This document shows, piece after piece, positions 14,584 through 43,920 of a DNA stretch of 64,000 nt. A program made the position numbers and the translations under genes. The stretch lies in assembly GCA_902766045.1 (NCBI GenBank), contig CACXCA010000051.1:1-64000 (forward strand). Reading direction: 5' to 3'. How positions within the stretch are numbered: the first letter of the stretch is position 1; the number at the start of each line of letters is the position of its first letter. Origin of the DNA: an uncultured Bacteroidales bacterium (GTDB taxonomy: Bacteria > Bacteroidota > Bacteroidia > Bacteroidales > Paludibacteraceae). The notes under the pieces are model-generated. The model was given only the letters and a program-made list of their open reading frames with translations. It did not search any database and was not told where the DNA came from.

Positions 14584-15072
14584 TTATATTGCTGGCACAG
14601 ACGCCTGTCGTCCCATTGTAGAGACGCAATGCATTGCGTCTGTACGTTCGTCGCACAGCACAACCGTCTGAAACGCAGGCACTGACATAGCAATCGTATT
14701 CCACATGATCATAATATTTTCGGACCTAGAATGGAACCATTCGCAGAACGTCTGCAGTTCCGAGACCAGTAAAGGTTGTGTTTCCGAGTAGAAGATGCAG
14801 ATATAAGCATGGCGAAAGGGCACCCCCTCTTTGGTCTGTTCATTCAGTTGTTCTTTCAAGCGTTCTATTCTATCATCCTCGTCCGCCTCCGCAGAGAGGG
14901 TGAAAGCACGCAGTCCACCGTCCTCCTTGAACATCTCCTTGACCTCCTCATCGTCAACGCACATCAGCACATCCTCCGCGCGGAGCACATCCCCCTTGTT
15001 AATTTTCTCCCATAGGCTCATCTCTTTCTTCATAACATCTAAACTATTTAGTGATTCGTTATTTTTGCACAA
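14584..15072 (-). CDS. Unknown small soluble protein with repeat-derived C-terminus
   Basis: 162 residues, acidic and not recognised. Residues from about 75 to 140 read like a compact alpha/beta domain (HAYICIFYSETQPLLVSELQ). The last 25 codons are encoded by a copy of the dispersed palindrome described at 14618, giving TDAMHCVSTMG; the original C-terminus was therefore probably replaced when the repeat inserted. A terminator lies just upstream, separating it from the DUF262 operon. Confidence 0.5.
   Translation of the reverse strand: MCKNNESLNSLDVMKKEMSLWEKINKGDVLRAEDVLMCVDDEEVKEMFKEDGGLRAFTLSAEADEDDRIERLKEQLNEQTKEGVPFRHAYICIFYSETQPLLVSELQTFCEWFHSRSENIMIMWNTIAMSVPAFQTVVLCDERTDAMHCVSTMGRQASVPAI
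14618..14645. repeat. Dispersed palindromic repeat, copy 1
   Basis: A 28-base palindrome whose half-site is GTAGAGACGCAATG, with one mismatch in the right arm. It lies inside the 3' end of a coding frame. Four related copies are at 40188, 41587, 41638 and 42798. Confidence 0.85.
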
Positions 15073-37564: not shown

Positions 37565-39832
37565 TCACACTGTCAGCAGTTTCGTCACCTCCGCCGGGTT
37601 GAGCGCCCACTCGTACGTGTAGGTTTCATCGGCCTCGTCAACTTTCTCTACAAGCGTAAGATGTTGTGCTTGCGCCTTAATGTCGAGTAGTTGTCCAATT
37701 GTTATTTTGCTCTCTAACCGACGGAGCAACGCCTCGATGGAAGCACTGTCCGCTCCTCGTAACGTCTGCGCCGTGAAAGGCATCTCAAGCCAGATAATCT
37801 CACGCTTTGTCACATCCAACACACCGAAAACTAATCCCTTGGTGAGGTTTCCTTCGCTGATGCGCACCATGTGCTGCACGCACGACGGATCGTAAGCTAC
37901 ACCTGTCTCCTCCGACACCTTCATCTCGTAGGCGGAATCCATCCAACCCACCATGAGGTTGGGCGAAAGCGTACCCGAGGAGTAGGCGTTGCAAGTGAAG
38001 GTCACATACGTGGCGCCGGCAGCCTCCAACTCAGGGAGGGAGAGCTCGATATACTCGGCTGTACCCATCTCTCCTTTGGGCACCCAACGGATGTCGCCCG
38101 AGTGTTTTGCTCCCACGCAGGTCAGACTGTAGTAGGCGCACTCCGCGATTTGGTTATCTGGTAAAGCGACACGACAGCTCAAGTCCATGTCGATCGGACG
38201 GCAACCGAGACCTTTTCCCCAGTGGAGGAAGAGTCGCACAGCATCGCCCGACACCGGGAAGCGCGTACCCATCAATGCGCAGGAGGTGTCCTGAATAGTG
38301 GAGGAACGGTCGCCCACACTCACAGGGATATTATAGAGCGAAGGATCGATATAGATGCGCTTCGCCTCACACGGTTGTGCTGCGAATCGTTTAGTCATGG
38401 AACGTTGGTAGAGCACTTTGATCGCCTCCATCATTCCTTGTAGGGCCTCCTCGTCGTAGAGTACCAGCAGTTTATTCGGTTCAATCGTTCTGACACCGCC
38501 TGTGATAGGACGAGCCAGACGCTCCGCCTTCGGGTCGAAATAGGTCTCTGCCGCATTGCAAAGCGAGAGCAGTAAGCGGGCAGGCGTTCGATCCTCAACC
38601 TCAGAGAAAGCCGCCAACGTCTTGTCGGCACCGAAACGCAACATGGAAGCGAAGAGACAACGGGCAAAGAGTCCCGGACGTTCCTTCAGCAGCGCCAGCG
38701 TAGTCTCCGCATCGTTGGTGGAACGAGCCTTATCAACACGTCCTTGCCATGTGGAATAGTCTTGCTTGTAGAAGAGATCGAGTATCTCTGCCAAGCGGTC
38801 GAAGCCCTTCTTGCGGGAGTATTCGCCCAAACGGAGTGCACGGATCATGCGTACCCACATACCACGCTTCGGGTTCATGTTCTCGACCGACTGGATAGCC
38901 GTCATTGGAATATTGTTCAGCCATTTTGCCACACAGAGACAAGTCTTACGATCATATTTCAGCATTAGTTTACGCTTCATGTCAATGGCTGCATCCTGAC
39001 TTCTGTCGAGTGGTCCCCACATGTGGAAGTATAACTTGCTGGCGTGGGCGACAAGCGTCTTTGGTTCGATGATCTGCGCAAAGCCCGTCTTCTCGAACCA
39101 GAGGTAGCGAAGGATGTCGGTCGGAGTCTTCAAGAAGCGCATCGCCTCATCAGACTTGCCTTGAGCCACAAATTGCTTGATGATTAACATGACGGTCTCC
39201 TTCATTGCAATGTCAATATCAGCTGGCAAAGGGAAGACTTGAAGTAACTGCGCTAAAGAATCCGCTTGTGTACCATCCAAAGGGGTAGCAGATGATAGGA
39301 GAGAACGGAAGACGTTTTCCATATCTTTTAGTGTGAACAGACGCAGTTCCTTCAACTTGCTGGCTTGCCCTTTATAGACGAAATCAGAGGTCTCGAATGG
39401 TTTGCCGCAGAAGGGACATCCATTGTATCTCTCCAGTGGGAAGGTACCCTCTGGAATCAAGTGACCGCAAGGCAATGTGGTGCCTTTGAAACCAGCCTTC
39501 TTGCCAAAGATATTAGCAATCCAAGTGATGAGATGATCGGCTAAGGATTCACCTGTAGGCACATCCCAGCCCTTGACGAGAGGTGTCCAGTTGAGTTTCA
39601 CACCCATCACTTCATTGATGCACTCAGTAATCTCTGCGAGGCGATCCACAGGGACGTTGTTCAATGCGTGGAGCAACTCTTCGCTGACACAGTAACCATT
39701 CTCCTGCAAGCGGCGGACGAACGCCAAGACGGGAGCGGTCGCTTCCGACTGTAGGTTGATATCCGCACGGTTCACATCCAAGAACACTGCCTTGTAGCGC
39801 AAGGCCACTTTGGTTAAAATATTGTTATTCAT
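37565..39832 (-). CDS. RING-like and TerD-like domain protein (MXAN_6230/SCO0854-type)
   Basis: 755 residues. Near the N-terminus a Zn-binding RING-like knuckle is visible, with Cys 122, His 124 (LPCGH) and Cys 139, Cys 142 (CPFC). The middle is helical and unassigned. Near residues 560-650 there is a TerD-like beta-sandwich part (GDAVRLFLHWGKG, then CRVALPDNQIAECAYY). This layout matches the MXAN_6230/SCO0854 RING-domain family, which I recall only by name. It is downstream of the RtcB gene across a 430-base gap rich in RNA structure. TerD-like and RtcB genes in one locus suggest a stress or RNA-damage response. Confidence 0.75.
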   Translation of the reverse strand: MNNNILTKVALRYKAVFLDVNRADINLQSEATAPVLAFVRRLQENGYCVSEELLHALNNVPVDRLAEITECINEVMGVKLNWTPLVKGWDVPTGESLADHLITWIANIFGKKAGFKGTTLPCGHLIPEGTFPLERYNGCPFCGKPFETSDFVYKGQASKLKELRLFTLKDMENVFRSLLSSATPLDGTQADSLAQLLQVFPLPADIDIAMKETVMLIIKQFVAQGKSDEAMRFLKTPTDILRYLWFEKTGFAQIIEPKTLVAHASKLYFHMWGPLDRSQDAAIDMKRKLMLKYDRKTCLCVAKWLNNIPMTAIQSVENMNPKRGMWVRMIRALRLGEYSRKKGFDRLAEILDLFYKQDYSTWQGRVDKARSTNDAETTLALLKERPGLFARCLFASMLRFGADKTLAAFSEVEDRTPARLLLSLCNAAETYFDPKAERLARPITGGVRTIEPNKLLVLYDEEALQGMMEAIKVLYQRSMTKRFAAQPCEAKRIYIDPSLYNIPVSVGDRSSTIQDTSCALMGTRFPVSGDAVRLFLHWGKGLGCRPIDMDLSCRVALPDNQIAECAYYSLTCVGAKHSGDIRWVPKGEMGTAEYIELSLPELEAAGATYVTFTCNAYSSGTLSPNLMVGWMDSAYEMKVSEETGVAYDPSCVQHMVRISEGNLTKGLVFGVLDVTKREIIWLEMPFTAQTLRGADSASIEALLRRLESKITIGQLLDIKAQAQHLTLVEKVDEADETYTYEWALNPAEVTKLLTV

Positions 39833-39915
39833 AACAGTAAAAATTTAAAAGGTAATGGGTCAGCAGAGAAACTATAATTCGGATTTGAAGTATGCTGACC
39901 TTGACCTTGTTATTG

Positions 39916-40005
39916 AGCGGCGGGTTGGATTCGAACCAACAGTAACCATTAGAAGTAAGCATACGTTTAGGCCAAAGAAGAGGCAATTACAAAGCTTACC
40001 GCCGC
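39916..40005 (-). ncRNA. tRNA-like structured RNA (element A)
   Basis: On the minus strand GCGGCGG (39999-40005) pairs with CCGCCGC (39917-39923). Next to it is a five-pair T-arm, GTTGG-TTCGAAT-CCAAC, giving a coaxial acceptor/T-stem like that of a tRNA. Inside, GTAAGC can pair with GCTTAC. No normal D-arm or anticodon arm is evident and no CCA is encoded. Such tRNA-like modules are known from bacterial Y RNAs near RtcB. A true tRNA with a long variable arm was considered but does not fold well. The call is based on structure only. Confidence 0.6.
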
Positions 40006-40007
40006 AT

Positions 40008-40094
40008 AAAAAAAAGACGGAAATTACGGTTCTGCCCTGTTTGAGCCCCGAAGGTCTCATACTAATAGAAGTAAGAACCATTTAGTCCGTCTTA
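40008..40094 (-). ncRNA. Structured RNA with terminator-like closing stem (element B)
   Basis: On the minus strand AAGACGGA (40086-40093) pairs with TCCGTCTT (40014-40021), and six more T follow, as in an intrinsic terminator. Inside are a six-pair stem GGTTCT/AGAACC and a hairpin GAGACC-TTCG-GGGCTC with the stable C(UUCG)G loop, which fixes the strand. It shares CTTACTTCTA with element A. The upstream segment 40135-40143 (TCCGTCTTA) could pair with the same strand instead. Confidence 0.6.
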
Positions 40095-40108
40095 TGAATG
40101 TAAAAATA

Positions 40109-40143
40109 TATACAATTTGTATAATTACGAAAAATAAGACGGA
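40109..40143 (-). promoter_or_regulatory. Competing strand and dyad before element B
   Basis: TATACAA-T-TTGTATA at 40109-40123 is a perfect dyad that could bind a regulator. At 40135-40143 TAAGACGGA is a nine-base inverted repeat of 40086-40094, so on the minus-strand RNA it could sequester the 5' strand of element B. Confidence 0.45.
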
Positions 40144-40187
40144 AAAATTGTGAATATATTTTCAAATATCAATCGGGTGTCGGGGGC

Positions 40188-40215
40188 GTAGAGACGCAAT
40201 GCATTGCGTCTCTAC
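40188..40215. repeat. Dispersed palindromic repeat, copy 2
   Basis: A perfect 28-base palindrome with half-site GTAGAGACGCAATG, just downstream of the RtcB gene. Confidence 0.9.
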
Positions 40216-40262
40216 AATTGGCACCGTGATGCCGGGGCGGGGGGCGGGTGTAAACGGGTGCA

Positions 40263-41444
40263 TCACCCCTTGATTACCGCCACTGGCAACAATTTTGTTT
40301 TCACCCTGACCAGATCCGCCTCGTTGGCGATAACCTCATCGATATCCTTGTAGGCACCAGAGGCCTCCTGCATATCATCCTGACTACGGATGGCGTGAAC
40401 GATACCTTTCGCCTCCAGCATCTCCACCTCCTGTCGCATATCCAGTGTGTTGATGGCCATCTTACGCGACATGACTCGACCCGCACCGTGAGAGCAGGAG
40501 CAGAACGAATCAGGATTACCAAGACCTTCGACGATATACGAAGCCGTACCCTGCGAGCCTGGGATGATACCGATGACACCTTCACGGGCAAGTGTGGCGC
40601 CTTTACGGTGCACGATGACATCCGACCCGAAGTGGTTCTCAACAGCAGCGTAGTTGTGGGCGATGTTGATCATTGGTTCGAACTCGATTCCCTTCAGTGC
40701 GTTGGCAATCACCTCTTCTATACGTTCCATCATCAGTCGTCTGTTGCACAAGGCGAAATCCACGCAATATTTCATCTCGTCCCAGTACATACCGAACTCC
40801 TTACATCCTCGAGCAAGGAAGGGTAAGTGCAGGGAAGGGGAGACGCTAGAGTACCATCGTTCGTTCAGAGAGGCTGCCAGTTTGTTGTAGAAATCACCCA
40901 CCTGCTTTCCTAAGTTACGCGAACCCGAGTGGATCATGATCCAAAGCGTATCCTCCTCATCCTTTTGTAGTTCGATGAAGTGGTTACCACCTCCCAATGT
41001 ACCTACCTCGTATTGAATGGAATGTAAGCGACGTTTCACCACTTCCAACTTATCCAAGTCATATCCTTGAGGCAGGTATTGCTCGTCCTGTGGCTCTTTG
41101 TGGTGGTCCATACCCAAAGGAATACGTTTGCGGATCCCCCTCATGATCTCCTTACGGAGCACATCCATAGGGATGTCGCCCACCTTCCAATTGGTTTTTA
41201 CGGCGCACATTCCGCAGCCGATATCAACGCCCACCGCATTAGGGATGACAACATCCTTGCAGGCGAGTACTCCACCAATCGGCATACCCATACCAGCGTG
41301 CACGTCGGGCATGATGGCTAAGTGATGGAAGAGGAAAGAAAGGGTGGTCAAGTTCTCAATTTGTTGCATGGCCGACTCCTCCACATTGTCGGTCCAAATC
41401 TTAACCAGACGGTTGTTTATTGTTTTGATTATCATTTTTGTCAA
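40263..41444 (-). CDS. rtcB: RtcB family RNA ligase
   Basis: 393 residues, the usual size of bacterial RtcB. The motifs VGVDIGCGMCAV (metal-binding Cys), MPDVHAGMGMPIGG, MIHSGSRNLGK (His) and SHGAGRVMSR (with the GMP-accepting His) are all intact. RtcB joins RNA 2',3'-cyclic phosphate or 3'-phosphate ends to 5'-OH ends using GTP, repairing RNAs cut by ribotoxins. It is divergent from the WYL regulator and lies upstream of the structured RNAs and the RING/TerD-like gene. No RtcA or archease gene is seen in the window. Confidence 0.95.
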   Translation of the reverse strand: MTKMIIKTINNRLVKIWTDNVEESAMQQIENLTTLSFLFHHLAIMPDVHAGMGMPIGGVLACKDVVIPNAVGVDIGCGMCAVKTNWKVGDIPMDVLRKEIMRGIRKRIPLGMDHHKEPQDEQYLPQGYDLDKLEVVKRRLHSIQYEVGTLGGGNHFIELQKDEEDTLWIMIHSGSRNLGKQVGDFYNKLAASLNERWYSSVSPSLHLPFLARGCKEFGMYWDEMKYCVDFALCNRRLMMERIEEVIANALKGIEFEPMINIAHNYAAVENHFGSDVIVHRKGATLAREGVIGIIPGSQGTASYIVEGLGNPDSFCSCSHGAGRVMSRKMAINTLDMRQEVEMLEAKGIVHAIRSQDDMQEASGAYKDIDEVIANEADLVRVKTKLLPVAVIKG

Positions 41445-41497: not shown

Positions 41498-41518
41498 CTA
41501 CGCAATCTATTTGCGTAG
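41498..41518. promoter_or_regulatory. Dyad operator in the rtcB/WYL divergent region
   Basis: CTACGCAA-TCTAT-TTGCGTAG has perfect eight-base arms. On the minus strand a -7-like box TTACTTTG (41482-41489) follows, so the dyad lies about where the -33 region of rtcB would be. The WYL protein encoded next to it is the obvious candidate binder. Confidence 0.6.
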
Positions 41519-41586: not shown

Positions 41587-41614
41587 GTAGAGACGCACGG
41601 CCGTGCGTCTCTAC
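41587..41614. repeat. Dispersed palindromic repeat, variant copy 3
   Basis: The outer arms are the same (GTAGAGACGCA), but the centre is CGGCCG instead of ATGCAT. The changes are symmetric, so base pairing is preserved. Confidence 0.9.
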
Positions 41615-41637
41615 AATCGCACGTATGTACAATGATG

Positions 41638-41659
41638 GAGACGCAATGCATTGCGTCTC
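41638..41659. repeat. Dispersed palindromic repeat, copy 4
   Basis: Perfect arms GAGACGCAATG and its reverse complement. The left outermost bases of the full unit are lost. Confidence 0.85.
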
Positions 41660-41734
41660 TACAAAGGTGCAATCCGTCTGTATAAATCGGAATCCGAATG
41701 AATTATAAAAACACCCAATATAAATTAGAAAAAT

Positions 41735-42781
41735 ATGCCAGCGAATAAAAATGCGTTGATACGCTACAAAACCATAGATAATTGTCTTCGAAATCCATAT
41801 CGACGTTGGACGCTTGAGGATTTGGTAGAGGCATGTTCCGATGCTCTTTATGAAATGGAGGGAATCAGTAAAGGCGTTTCTGTTCGAACTGTACAGAGCG
41901 ACATACAGATGATGCGCTCTGATAAATTAGGTTACAACGCACCGATTGAGGTGTACGAGCATAAGTATTATCGTTATGCAGATAAAGATTATTCCATTAT
42001 GAATATGCCCATGTCGCAAAACGACTATGATGTTATGCAGGAGGCGGTTGATATGTTGCGGCAATTGGAGGGTTTTGGACAATTTACTGAGATGGCAGAT
42101 GTGGTTAGCCGTTTGCAAGACAAATTGGCAATCTCCCGTAATAATAGGAAACCCATAATTCATTTTGATAGTGTACCCAACCTGATGGGTATTCGTTTAC
42201 TCACGCCGCTTTACAACTATATCGCTAATAAGCAGACGTTGCGGATTATGTATCAATCTTTTACCGCCAGGGAACCAGTTGAGTATATACTTTGCCCCTA
42301 TTTATTGAAGGAATTTCGTAACCGTTGGTTTCTGTTTGGTTCAAAGGCAAGCAATCTTTTGTTGCTCAATCTCGCACTTGACCGTATTGTTAGTGTTGAA
42401 CCTTCGGAGGTGCCTTTCCGTGAGAATCCGGACTTCGATCCAGAGCACTTTTTTGACGACGTGGTGGGCGTGAGCAAAAACATCAACAGCAAACCTAGTC
42501 GAATCGTCTTTTGGGCGAATAATATGCAAAGCAAGTATATTAAGACCAAACCCATTCATGCTTCGCAAAAAGTTATTCAAGAGAATAAGGAGGATGGGAG
42601 CTGTGTCTTTAGCATTGAAGTAGTTATCAATTATGAGATGTATTCTGTTTTTATGTCGTACGGACCAGGTGTTCAAATCCTATATCCACGAGATGCCCGA
42701 AATTATCTTCGGGATAAAATGAAGCAAGCAGTGGATATGTATGAAGGTGAGGTGGGGGATTTCTTTAATGCATTGGATTGA
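41735..42781 (+). CDS. WYL-domain regulator near rtcB
   Basis: 348 residues. The N-terminal 120 residues form the DNA-binding part (MPANKNALIRYKTIDNCLRN, then RTVQSDIQMMRSDKLGYNAPIEVY). They are followed by a WYL domain with PVEYILCPYLLKEFRNRWFLF and a C-terminal region with VGVSKNINSKPSRIVFWA. It is divergent from rtcB, with a dyad between them, so it is the probable regulator of rtcB. A paralogue lacking the WYL part lies at 43507. Confidence 0.85.
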   Translation: MPANKNALIRYKTIDNCLRNPYRRWTLEDLVEACSDALYEMEGISKGVSVRTVQSDIQMMRSDKLGYNAPIEVYEHKYYRYADKDYSIMNMPMSQNDYDVMQEAVDMLRQLEGFGQFTEMADVVSRLQDKLAISRNNRKPIIHFDSVPNLMGIRLLTPLYNYIANKQTLRIMYQSFTAREPVEYILCPYLLKEFRNRWFLFGSKASNLLLLNLALDRIVSVEPSEVPFRENPDFDPEHFFDDVVGVSKNINSKPSRIVFWANNMQSKYIKTKPIHASQKVIQENKEDGSCVFSIEVVINYEMYSVFMSYGPGVQILYPRDARNYLRDKMKQAVDMYEGEVGDFFNALD

Positions 42782-42797
42782 GGTTGGAATTACGGAC

Positions 42798-42825
42798 GTA
42801 GAGACGCAATGCATTGCGTCTCTAC
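42798..42825. repeat. Dispersed palindromic repeat, copy 5
   Basis: A perfect copy of the 28-base palindrome, 16 bases after the stop of the WYL regulator. Confidence 0.9.
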
Positions 42826-43439: not shown

Positions 43440-43484
43440 ATAGTTGGGATATCCTTACCGAAGGAAATTCCAACTATTTTTTTT
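43440..43484 (+). terminator. Strong terminator before the WYL-less regulator
   Basis: ATAGTTGG pairs with CCAACTAT. Inside, TCCTT-ACCG-AAGGA extends the stem, and a run of eight T follows the outer arm. It lies 23 bases upstream of the start of the next gene and so could act as an attenuator. Confidence 0.8.
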
Positions 43485-43506
43485 ATCACAAAATGAAGAA
43501 ACAATT

Positions 43507-43920
43507 ATGCCAGCCAATAAGAATGCCTTGATAAGGTACAAAACGATAGACAACTGTTTGAGAAACAGATACAGAAGATGGACGATCGACGACCTCGTGG
43601 ATGCGTGCAGCGAAGCGTTGTACGATATGGAGGGAATCACCAAAGGAGTGTGCACCCGGACCGTGCAGATGGATATTCAGATCATGAGATCTGACAAATT
43701 AGGCTACAACGCTCCGATAGAGGTGTACGACAAGATCTACTATAGATATGCGGATCCCGATTACTCCATCACGGAGATGCCGCTATCCGTGGATGATTGC
43801 AAACTCATCAAGGAGGCCATCGCACTCCTTGGAAACAGAGAGAACTCTGATTCGGAAAAGATGAGGAGTGTCCTCACAAAGGTTCAGAACAGATTAACTA
43901 CCATTCTGAATTTTGCATAG
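43507..43920 (+). CDS. WYL-less paralogue of the 41735 regulator
   Basis: 137 residues from ATG 43507, which aligns with the start of the 41735 protein. The first 110 residues closely match that protein's DNA-binding part (MPANKNALIRYKTIDNCLRN, RTVQMDIQIMRSDKLGYNAP, YYRYADPDYSI). The rest, a short helical tail, replaces the WYL domain. It may compete for the same site without the sensing domain, or be a decaying duplicate. The frame is intact and codon use looks normal, which favours a functional gene. Confidence 0.7.
   Translation: MPANKNALIRYKTIDNCLRNRYRRWTIDDLVDACSEALYDMEGITKGVCTRTVQMDIQIMRSDKLGYNAPIEVYDKIYYRYADPDYSITEMPLSVDDCKLIKEAIALLGNRENSDSEKMRSVLTKVQNRLTTILNFA

Follow-up and report, generated by a model that had tools for sequence, protein, structure and literature searches.

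The DNA analyzed here, a stretch of 64,000 nucleotides that we call the window, carries structured RNAs on its minus strand between a gene for an RNA ligase and a gene for a RING/TerD protein. The question raised by this locus is which of the two neighbors the RNAs belong to, and in what capacity. The order on the minus strand is rtcB, the RNA gap, and the RING-TerD gene. rtcB (40263..41444, minus strand) encodes an RNA ligase family protein of 393 residues (Pfam RtcB, E 3.5e-106), and the RING-TerD gene (37565..39832, minus strand) encodes a RING/helical-repeat/TerD protein of 755 residues, recognized by profile, HMM, and fold searches. A WYL-domain transcription regulator is encoded on the plus strand, divergently from rtcB (41735..42781; Pfam WYL/WCX), and the intergenic region between the two contains the palindrome TACGCA-N7-TGCGTA (41499..41517; regular expression), a candidate operator. 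Three structured RNAs lie on the minus strand of the gap: element B, element A, and a third element (39845-39912). ARAGORN calls no tRNA in the gap, and an Rfam scan of the gap gave nothing at the gathering threshold. The Rfam Y RNA models RF00019, RF01053, and RF02553 have no match up to E 10 in 39800-40300.

Some further features around the genes should be noted. The palindromic repeat GTAGAGACGCAATGCATTGCGTCTCTAC or a near form of it is located at 14618-14645, 40188-40215, 41587-41614, 41635-41662, and 42798-42825. Four of the five sites surround rtcB and the WYL gene. The repeat, with 10 strand matches where 0.02 would be expected, looks like a REP or MITE-like element. A 158-residue frame near the intact WYL gene (43444-43920, plus strand; no Pfam match) duplicates the N-terminal part of the regulator. 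A known defence system was rejected as an identity for the pair of proteins, since neither the RING-TerD protein nor RtcB has a PADLOC match at E 0.01.

Element B (40008..40094, minus strand) is a hairpin-type RNA delineated by sequence, folding, a motif scan, and comparison of six distinct sequences. Its closing stem, AAGACGG/CCGUCUU, is followed by a T run, and an inner stem (GGUUCU/AGAACC) and a UUCG-capped hairpin are also formed. In P1, 40093-40087 pairs with 40020-40014, and in P2, 40080-40074 pairs with 40033-40027. The core loop is CUAAA facing UAAUUU, UACUUC occupies 40073-40068, and the terminator-like T run extends to 40008. The fold (−28.8 kcal/mol, z −4.5) is equalled by none of 200 shuffles. 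All five double-change cells among the six distinct sequences from related loci are in P2. Upstream of B, a complement (TCCGTCTTAT...ATAAGACGGA; minus strand, 40143-40086) overlaps the 5' arm of the closing stem and, judged from an alignment, could compete with the terminator-like hairpin. This complement is broken in three related loci (L013, L018, and L019, by eye), and an attenuator at B was rejected for this reason. Fibrobacter-1 (RF02983) gives a full-length but weak match to B (16.3 bits, E 1.1). A search of the genus (16 genomes) gave only E >1 and the model rang in 11 of 14 control genomes, so the match is regarded as chance and the identity was rejected. The Rfam matches to CLRN1-AS1, MIR812, and RT-14 are far under their gathering scores and were likewise taken as chance; that to MIR812 merely marks the inverted repeat upstream of B.

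Element A (39916..40005, minus strand) is an acceptor/T-arm minihelix with an inserted core, as indicated by its sequence, its folding, and its counterparts in relatives. A 7-bp acceptor-like stem (GCGGCGG/CCGCCGC) and a T-arm (GTTGG-TTCGAAT-CCAAC) are present, while the D and anticodon arms are replaced by the core in a circularly permuted order: the Y strand UAAUU-GCC, a short loop, and the X strand GGC-CUAAA-P2-UACUUC. The fold (z −3.3) is equalled by one of 200 shuffles. A is under the Rfam tRNA gathering score and forms no cloverleaf with an anticodon loop. Counterparts of 90-91 nt are found in 12 of the 20 related loci described below (L011-L030), giving seven distinct sequences plus that of the window. 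The T-stem has five double-change cells and P2 has two; the acceptor and the core P1 show no such cells.

Elements B and A had been proposed in a preliminary description of the gap, and their features on the minus strand (the stems, the T run, the UUCG hairpin, the acceptor-like stem, and the T-arm) are present as described, as is the sequence CTTACTTCTA common to both. A lack of conservation of paired positions in related loci had been named as a refutation, and counting shows the opposite: 81 of 84 P1 and P2 cells are paired in B (six distinct sequences), and in A (eight distinct sequences) pairing is complete in the acceptor and T-stem (96 of 96 cells) and extends to 62 of 72 cells in the core. 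The inventory of A and B was sound as far as it went, but it overlooked a third RNA, the permutation of A, and the association with the RING-TerD gene.

The third element (39845..39912, minus strand), also of the hairpin type, scores 68.4 bits with a covariance model of this type (R1), the sequence itself being among the 15 training sequences of R1. It reads AAGGUC-AAG-..-CAUACUUC...-CCAUUACCUU and ends 12 nt before the start codon of the RING-TerD gene. When both strands of the whole 64 kb are scanned for P1, P2, and T[AC]CTTC, the top scores are those of B (38) and the third element (33). Four more matches score 28-30, one of them being the anchor in A and three lying elsewhere. The core is located 68-95 nt upstream of the RING-TerD start codon in 24 of 28 relatives (regular expression).

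The core common to all three RNAs consists of P1, an internal loop with CNAA opposite AAUU, a P2 of 7 bp, and U[AC]CUUC. Its conservation was followed in 20 loci (L011-L030) fetched by a search of genome contigs with the 755-residue protein (66-97% identity); the nearest relatives found by search are genomes from rumen metagenomes that carry the label Bacteroidales or Paludibacteraceae. Across these loci, strand X reads GGN-CNAA-P2-[AU]-UACUUC and strand Y reads P2'-(N)AAUU-NCC. In the hairpin RNAs (B and the third element) X comes first and a variable part caps P2. In A and in tRNA-like RNAs of the relatives, Y comes first and P1 is capped by a short loop, and the core is thus circularly permuted. 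Two helices around a conserved internal loop form a lower stem, a feature of bacterial Y RNAs.

Covariation supports both types. In the hairpin type (15 sequences), 97.6% of 165 cells are paired with 38 double-change cells, a level reached in none of 500 shuffles. Six of the seven P2 pairs are changed on both sides, including a U-A/A-U switch beside UACUUC. P1 is nearly invariant, and the covariation of the core therefore rests mainly on P2. These 15 are the sequences from which R1 was built, out of 26 hairpin sequences (A2), mainly those with the shorter CAA loop; the restriction was made because P1 fell out of register in MAFFT alignments that combined both loop lengths. Regular-expression hits without P2 pairing (L024:11622 and L025:11622) were omitted from the alignments.

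In the tRNA-like type (10 sequences), 94.9% of 292 cells in the acceptor, D, anticodon-remnant, P2, P1, and T helices are paired, with 55 double-change cells and none of 500 shuffles as high. For the core alone, 85% of 100 cells are paired and the covariation score is again reached by none of 500 shuffles; the core P1 is paired in just 76.7% of cells. The alignment (A9) holds 10 of 13 sequences, leaving aside L012 (doubled insert), L013, and L019 4391-4512, and the counts retain an L019 row shifted by one column in P1 (A10) and an L018 row shifted by one in P2 (A11). The anticodon arm is swapped for the core in these RNAs, leaving four covarying pairs and no 7-nt anticodon loop. Of a possible tRNA-like effector domain, the window has the acceptor and T-arm only, in A; relatives have full tRNA scaffolds. 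Fifteen array RNAs in 13 relatives pass the Rfam tRNA (RF00005) gathering score, and ARAGORN, run on seven of these 13 loci, calls none of them. The relatives carry rows of such RNAs, with one to nine cores upstream of the gene per locus by regular-expression count (four for the window, including one far outside the gap that was excluded). Hymenobacter volaticus is one cultured bacterium with such an array.

Two variants were seen by eye. One tRNA-like RNA (L012:4724-4911) has an insertion of double length, seemingly two core copies in tandem. In L107 and L108, some hairpin-type RNAs hold a T-arm without a D-arm in the loop, and by eye they appear intermediate between the plain hairpins and the tRNA-like forms.

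The RNAs track the RING/helical-repeat/TerD gene more closely than rtcB. R1 matches all 20 protein-fetched loci at E 0.08 or better, nine of the 20 having supplied training sequences, while rtcB was found with the rtcB of the window (tblastn) in 11 of them. Among the nine rtcB-negative loci, L021 and L022 have <1.2 kb of upstream sequence and the other seven have 5 kb. Genome searches with R1 were run with stricter filters, which may lose weak matches. Over 295 genomes of the order, R1 matched four, all among the seven genomes with NF041916-type protein matches, and the R1 matches sit upstream of the NF041916-related gene. The three NF041916-positive but R1-negative genomes comprise two with 25%-identical HEAT-TerD homologues (L043 and L044, with neither an R1 nor an rtcB match in the stretches searched) and one whose match is short and partial. 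In the class (395 genomes), R1 matched four, namely the genome of the window and three new ones. The RNA was the sole starting point of this search, which could have failed to lead to the gene, and in all three new genomes the RING-TerD gene is directly downstream (49-52% identity). The RING-TerD gene thus adjoins the RNAs in seven of seven R1-matched genomes. The earlier suggestion that the RNAs resemble substrates of RtcB is not supported by this distribution.

Parts of the RING-TerD protein are recognized by different methods: Prok-RING_4 scores 25.4 bits, just below its cut-off of 27; RING ligases are weakly recognized in a PDB sequence search (E 0.008); and Foldseek finds the TerD structure 2qz7 (prob 0.99, E 0.069). 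NF041916 (RING_SCO0854) matches with E 5.7e-44 and 150.5 bits against a curated cut-off of 600, so that the protein is a remote relative of this family below its membership cut-off. The helical domain was considered as a Ro60 homologue, and this was rejected, since hhalign, the PDB sequence search, and AlphaFold with Foldseek are all negative. TROVE is found neither by Pfam at E 0.01 nor by hhalign (0.2% with a narrow and 1.4% with a broad alignment). The PDB sequence search with the helical domain finds no Ro60; the control works, as a TROVE alignment recovers 2nvo and 1yvp. Ro60 is absent among the 50 Foldseek matches listed for each of two AlphaFold models, whose pLDDT values (68 and 78) leave room for a remote relation. 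A search of the genome of the window with PF05731 (TROVE) gave no match either, extending to the genome the earlier statement that no Ro60 gene was in view.

Phages as well as plasmids, the latter from Streptomyces, Variovorax, Vibrio, Deinococcus, Niallia, and others, encode homologues of about 20-30% identity. Plasmid searches gave 27 and 22 HEAT-TerD records, of which 11 were examined, and phage searches gave 5 and 9, of which two were examined. A scan for P1-loop-P2-T[AC]CTTC-P2'-loop-P1' detects the arrangement beside most of the distant homologues examined: a gut phage clone has four copies, Variovorax, Niallia, two Vibrio species, and Lactobacillus phage LpeD have two apiece, and two Streptomyces and one Deinococcus have a single copy each. 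A lower-scoring background is also present, mostly within genes. The elements are downstream of the gene in Variovorax, Niallia, and Vibrio, the Variovorax pair being separated from the RING-TerD gene by one small gene.

In 13 of 14 HEAT-TerD gaps, which include the window and four other Bacteroidota and were picked after the motif scan results were known, no more than 1 of 300 dinucleotide shuffles attains the best motif score. The tested gap of Deinococcus KNUC1210 has no motif. The gaps of L087 and L101 were scanned for the motif and stand outside the shuffle test. When 18 loci were scanned without selection (386 kb, counting both strands), 29 matches scored >=28. All 14 matches of >=34 lie in the gap beside a HEAT-TerD or TROVE gene, on the strand of the gene; of the 15 weaker ones (28-33), seven are in such gaps and eight elsewhere. 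In the gut phage clone (L096:710-2050), the HEAT-TerD gene and the RNA row come after a tmRNA and several tRNA genes. HEAT-TerD homologues are also encoded by Rhodococcus phage Weasels2, Rhodobacter phage RcXuper, Ruegeria phage RpAliso, Salicola phage SCTP-2, and a 485-kb uncultured phage. The closest published parallel encountered is a Listeria phage (PMC12282133) with a protein resembling Rsr and three abundant RNAs that were proposed to be Y RNAs.

We also analyzed loci with Ro60 (TROVE) genes; of 198 genomes sampled across the phylum, 13 have such a gene. Eight of the 13 loci have a long match to WYL (42-46% identity) and ten have a match to rtcB. The palindrome TACGCA-N7-TGCGTA or a near form (regular expression) is present in nine, as well as in 15 RING-TerD loci. 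WYL, palindrome, and rtcB occur together in seven. The two kinds of locus thus share regulation signals, and the gene order is WYL-TROVE-RNAs-rtcB in the former and WYL-rtcB-RNAs-RING-TerD in the latter. In Proteobacteria, rtcR adjoins TROVE in Pseudomonas Leaf58 and is three small genes from RING-TerD in Variovorax. In Salmonella, an rsr-yrlBA-rtcBA operon is activated via RtcR by tRNA fragments, according to PMC7790460.

In ten of the TROVE-locus gaps, two to six cores fit TGCYGT-P2-[AU]UACUUC exactly or nearly (regular expression), together with T-loops and D-arms; the remaining three loci, scanned whole, have zero to three such core matches. The rows of two to six Y-RNA-type cores in L067 and L069-L077 do not reach the Rfam Y RNA gathering score. 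Below gathering, the TROVE-linked RNA of D. gobiensis matches YrlA with 49.6 bits (E 3.3e-10), and the five Bacteroidota TROVE loci scanned all have YrlA matches (E 9e-5 to 0.05), with one Deinococcus_Y_RNA match (E 5e-4). By these weak but significant matches in six loci, the TROVE-linked RNAs are Y RNAs in terms of Rfam. In the shuffle test (seven TROVE gaps), D. gobiensis, Meiothermus, and L067 beat 300 of 300 shuffles, L076 and L070 beat 291-292 of 300, and the gaps of Pseudomonas Leaf58 and Haloplanus have no motif. The motif is thus not general among TROVE loci. In none of the 13 TROVE loci does R1 give a match with E below 1.7. Since the window RNAs have no Y RNA match and R1 is blind to the TROVE loci, the two RNA families are distinct, while U[AC]CUUC after P2 and a similar architecture are common to both. 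The term Y-RNA-like, used in the preliminary description, is therefore apt in terms of likeness, by way of TROVE loci with WYL, palindrome, rtcB, and UACUUC, but not as an identity, as no Rfam Y RNA model matches the window RNAs.

The positions of the ends should be noted. The YrlA consensus runs P1, P2, T-arm, acceptor-like hairpin, D-arm, P2', and P1', and the tRNA-like array RNAs run acceptor, D-arm, P2', P1', loop, P1, P2, UACUUC, T-arm, and acceptor. The neighbors are the same and the ends are moved, and in layout the tRNA-like members are thus circular permutants of YrlA. This permutation is a likeness of layout, short of proof of common descent. According to the structure comparison in PMC11472068, a bacterial Y RNA (PDB 6CU1) also aligns to tRNA through circular permutation.

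How, then, are the RNAs to be understood? If the elements were cis-acting leader or attenuator structures by which the RING-TerD mRNA regulates itself, and no separate RNAs, the regular spacing of 68-95 nt to the start codon (24 of 28 relatives) would be explained, as would the T run that ends B and the upstream complement overlapping it. Rows of up to nine cores (regular expression), the covarying acceptor, D-, and T-arms of the tRNA-like members, and the location downstream of the gene in Variovorax, Niallia, and Vibrio all argue the other way, as does the breakage of the complement in three relatives, and we consider a cis leader unlikely. Rather improbable, too, are RNAs related to RtcB itself, that is, split or intron-bearing tRNAs or self-cleaving elements whose ends are sealed or circularized by the ligase. 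rtcB adjoins the RNAs in the window and the core occupies the anticodon arm of the tRNA-like RNAs; moreover, a circularly permuted compact core is common in ribozymes. However, the RNAs are still there in the nine of 20 loci where rtcB is unmatched, and for seven of these nine the search covered 5 kb upstream. The hairpin types and A offer no tRNA to restore, and the tRNA-like type keeps just its four covarying pairs in place of an anticodon arm with a 7-nt loop.

A further candidate is a set of ordinary Y RNAs serving a Ro60 encoded elsewhere in the genome, consistent with the U[AC]CUUC after P2 that is the same in TROVE-linked RNAs of Bacteroidota and D. gobiensis. The genome of the window has no TROVE match, the internal loop is CNAA/AAUU instead of GCYGUAG/GUUGCC (by eye), and R1 does not detect the TROVE-linked RNAs, which makes this candidate very unlikely. 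That A lacks D and anticodon arms might also suggest decayed tRNA genes with chance hairpins and no function. This is scarcely credible: the covariation counts and the conservation refute it for the family, and the search that started from the RNA returns only loci with the RING-TerD gene.

The explanation that we regard as probable is that the three noncoding RNAs form one family that functions as bacterial Y RNAs do, and that the RING/helical-repeat/TerD protein occupies the position held by Ro60 (Rsr) in other RNA-repair operons. From the linkage we infer that this protein is the RNA-binding partner of the array RNAs, and by analogy with the TROVE loci we take it to stand in Ro60's functional place within an RNA-repair operon. 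A broader proposal, toward which we lean slightly, is that bacteria and phages have a second, Ro60-independent class of Y-RNA-type RNPs, some of whose RNAs are YrlA permutants, and that it replaced Ro60 in WYL- or RtcR-linked operons.

In the mechanism that we envisage for the RING-TerD loci, stress (RNA or DNA damage) would change WYL control and let the operon be transcribed, yielding RtcB, the RNA array, and the RING-TerD protein. From tRNA biology, acceptor/T-arm minihelices may also allow the array to be processed into individual RNAs by RNase P and RNase Z. RtcB would seal broken RNAs, and the RING-TerD protein would grip each RNA at the core stem, leaving the variable apical parts or tRNA-like domains to recruit, gate, or mimic an RNA-handling partner (a nuclease, RtcB, or tRNA enzymes). 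Such tethering of a partner would be analogous to the Rsr-Y RNA-PNPase complex, with YrlA and PNPase, that is described in two reviews (PMC8394870 and PMC4726728). The latter review also reports that Y RNA levels drop when Ro60 is deleted.

In the loci scanned, no Rfam family except tRNA recognizes the array RNAs at gathering. A literature search with partial coverage, which makes a prior description possible, found no paper that links Y RNAs to RING-TerD proteins. Within the reach of Rfam 15 and this search, the earlier suggestion of an undescribed RNA family holds. For the little-explained RING/TerD (NF041916) family, these arrays provide a concrete candidate for an RNA partner, along with a role in RNA repair that can be tested. 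Y-RNA-type RNAs may pair with a protein lacking detectable Ro60 similarity, suggesting an overlooked RNA-protein machine. The occurrence of one core in hairpin, YrlA-order, and tRNA-order designs makes it possible to examine which features of a Y RNA are recognized by the protein and what purpose tRNA mimicry serves. The tRNA-like members are open to misannotation as tRNAs or intron-bearing tRNAs.

Among the closest known systems, NF041916 (the MXAN_6230/SCO0854 family RING protein) is one on the protein side. The window protein is its remote relative, and two Streptomyces proteins so annotated have the RNA core upstream; however, the window protein is far under the cut-off, and the family description names no RNA partner. 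Deinococcus Y RNA (RF01053) and the Ro60/Rsr RNPs are alike in that an RNA neighbors the gene of a repeat protein within a locus for stress or RNA repair, and the TROVE-linked RNAs of D. gobiensis carry P2-UUCCUUC. They differ in the protein, which in the window has RING and TerD domains with no detectable TROVE homology.

On the RNA side, YrlA (RF02553) shares the P1-loop-P2 lower stem and is found in rtcB operons; in the tRNA-like members, the adjacency of X strand to T-arm and of D-arm to Y strand is also the same. YrlA ends at P1 with its acceptor arm as a closed hairpin, whereas the tRNA-like members end at the acceptor with P1 loop-closed. In addition, YrlA has no match in the window gap up to E 10 or in L106-L108 up to E 0.5, and the gene beside the window RNAs is RING-TerD, not TROVE. 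The tRNA family itself (RF00005) includes the 15 array RNAs above gathering by score, but a Y-type core replaces their anticodon arm. Similar loci are those of Bacteroidota with WYL, TROVE, a Y RNA array, and rtcB. A homologous WYL regulator, the same palindrome, and rtcB occur there (together in seven of 13), and the RNA rows likewise combine UACUUC after P2 with tRNA-like parts. In the RING-TerD loci, RING-TerD is present instead of TROVE with the gene order changed, the internal loop is CNAA/AAUU versus GCYGUAG/GUUGCC (by eye), and the tRNA-like parts follow the tRNA order, whereas those of the TROVE loci match the YrlA order.
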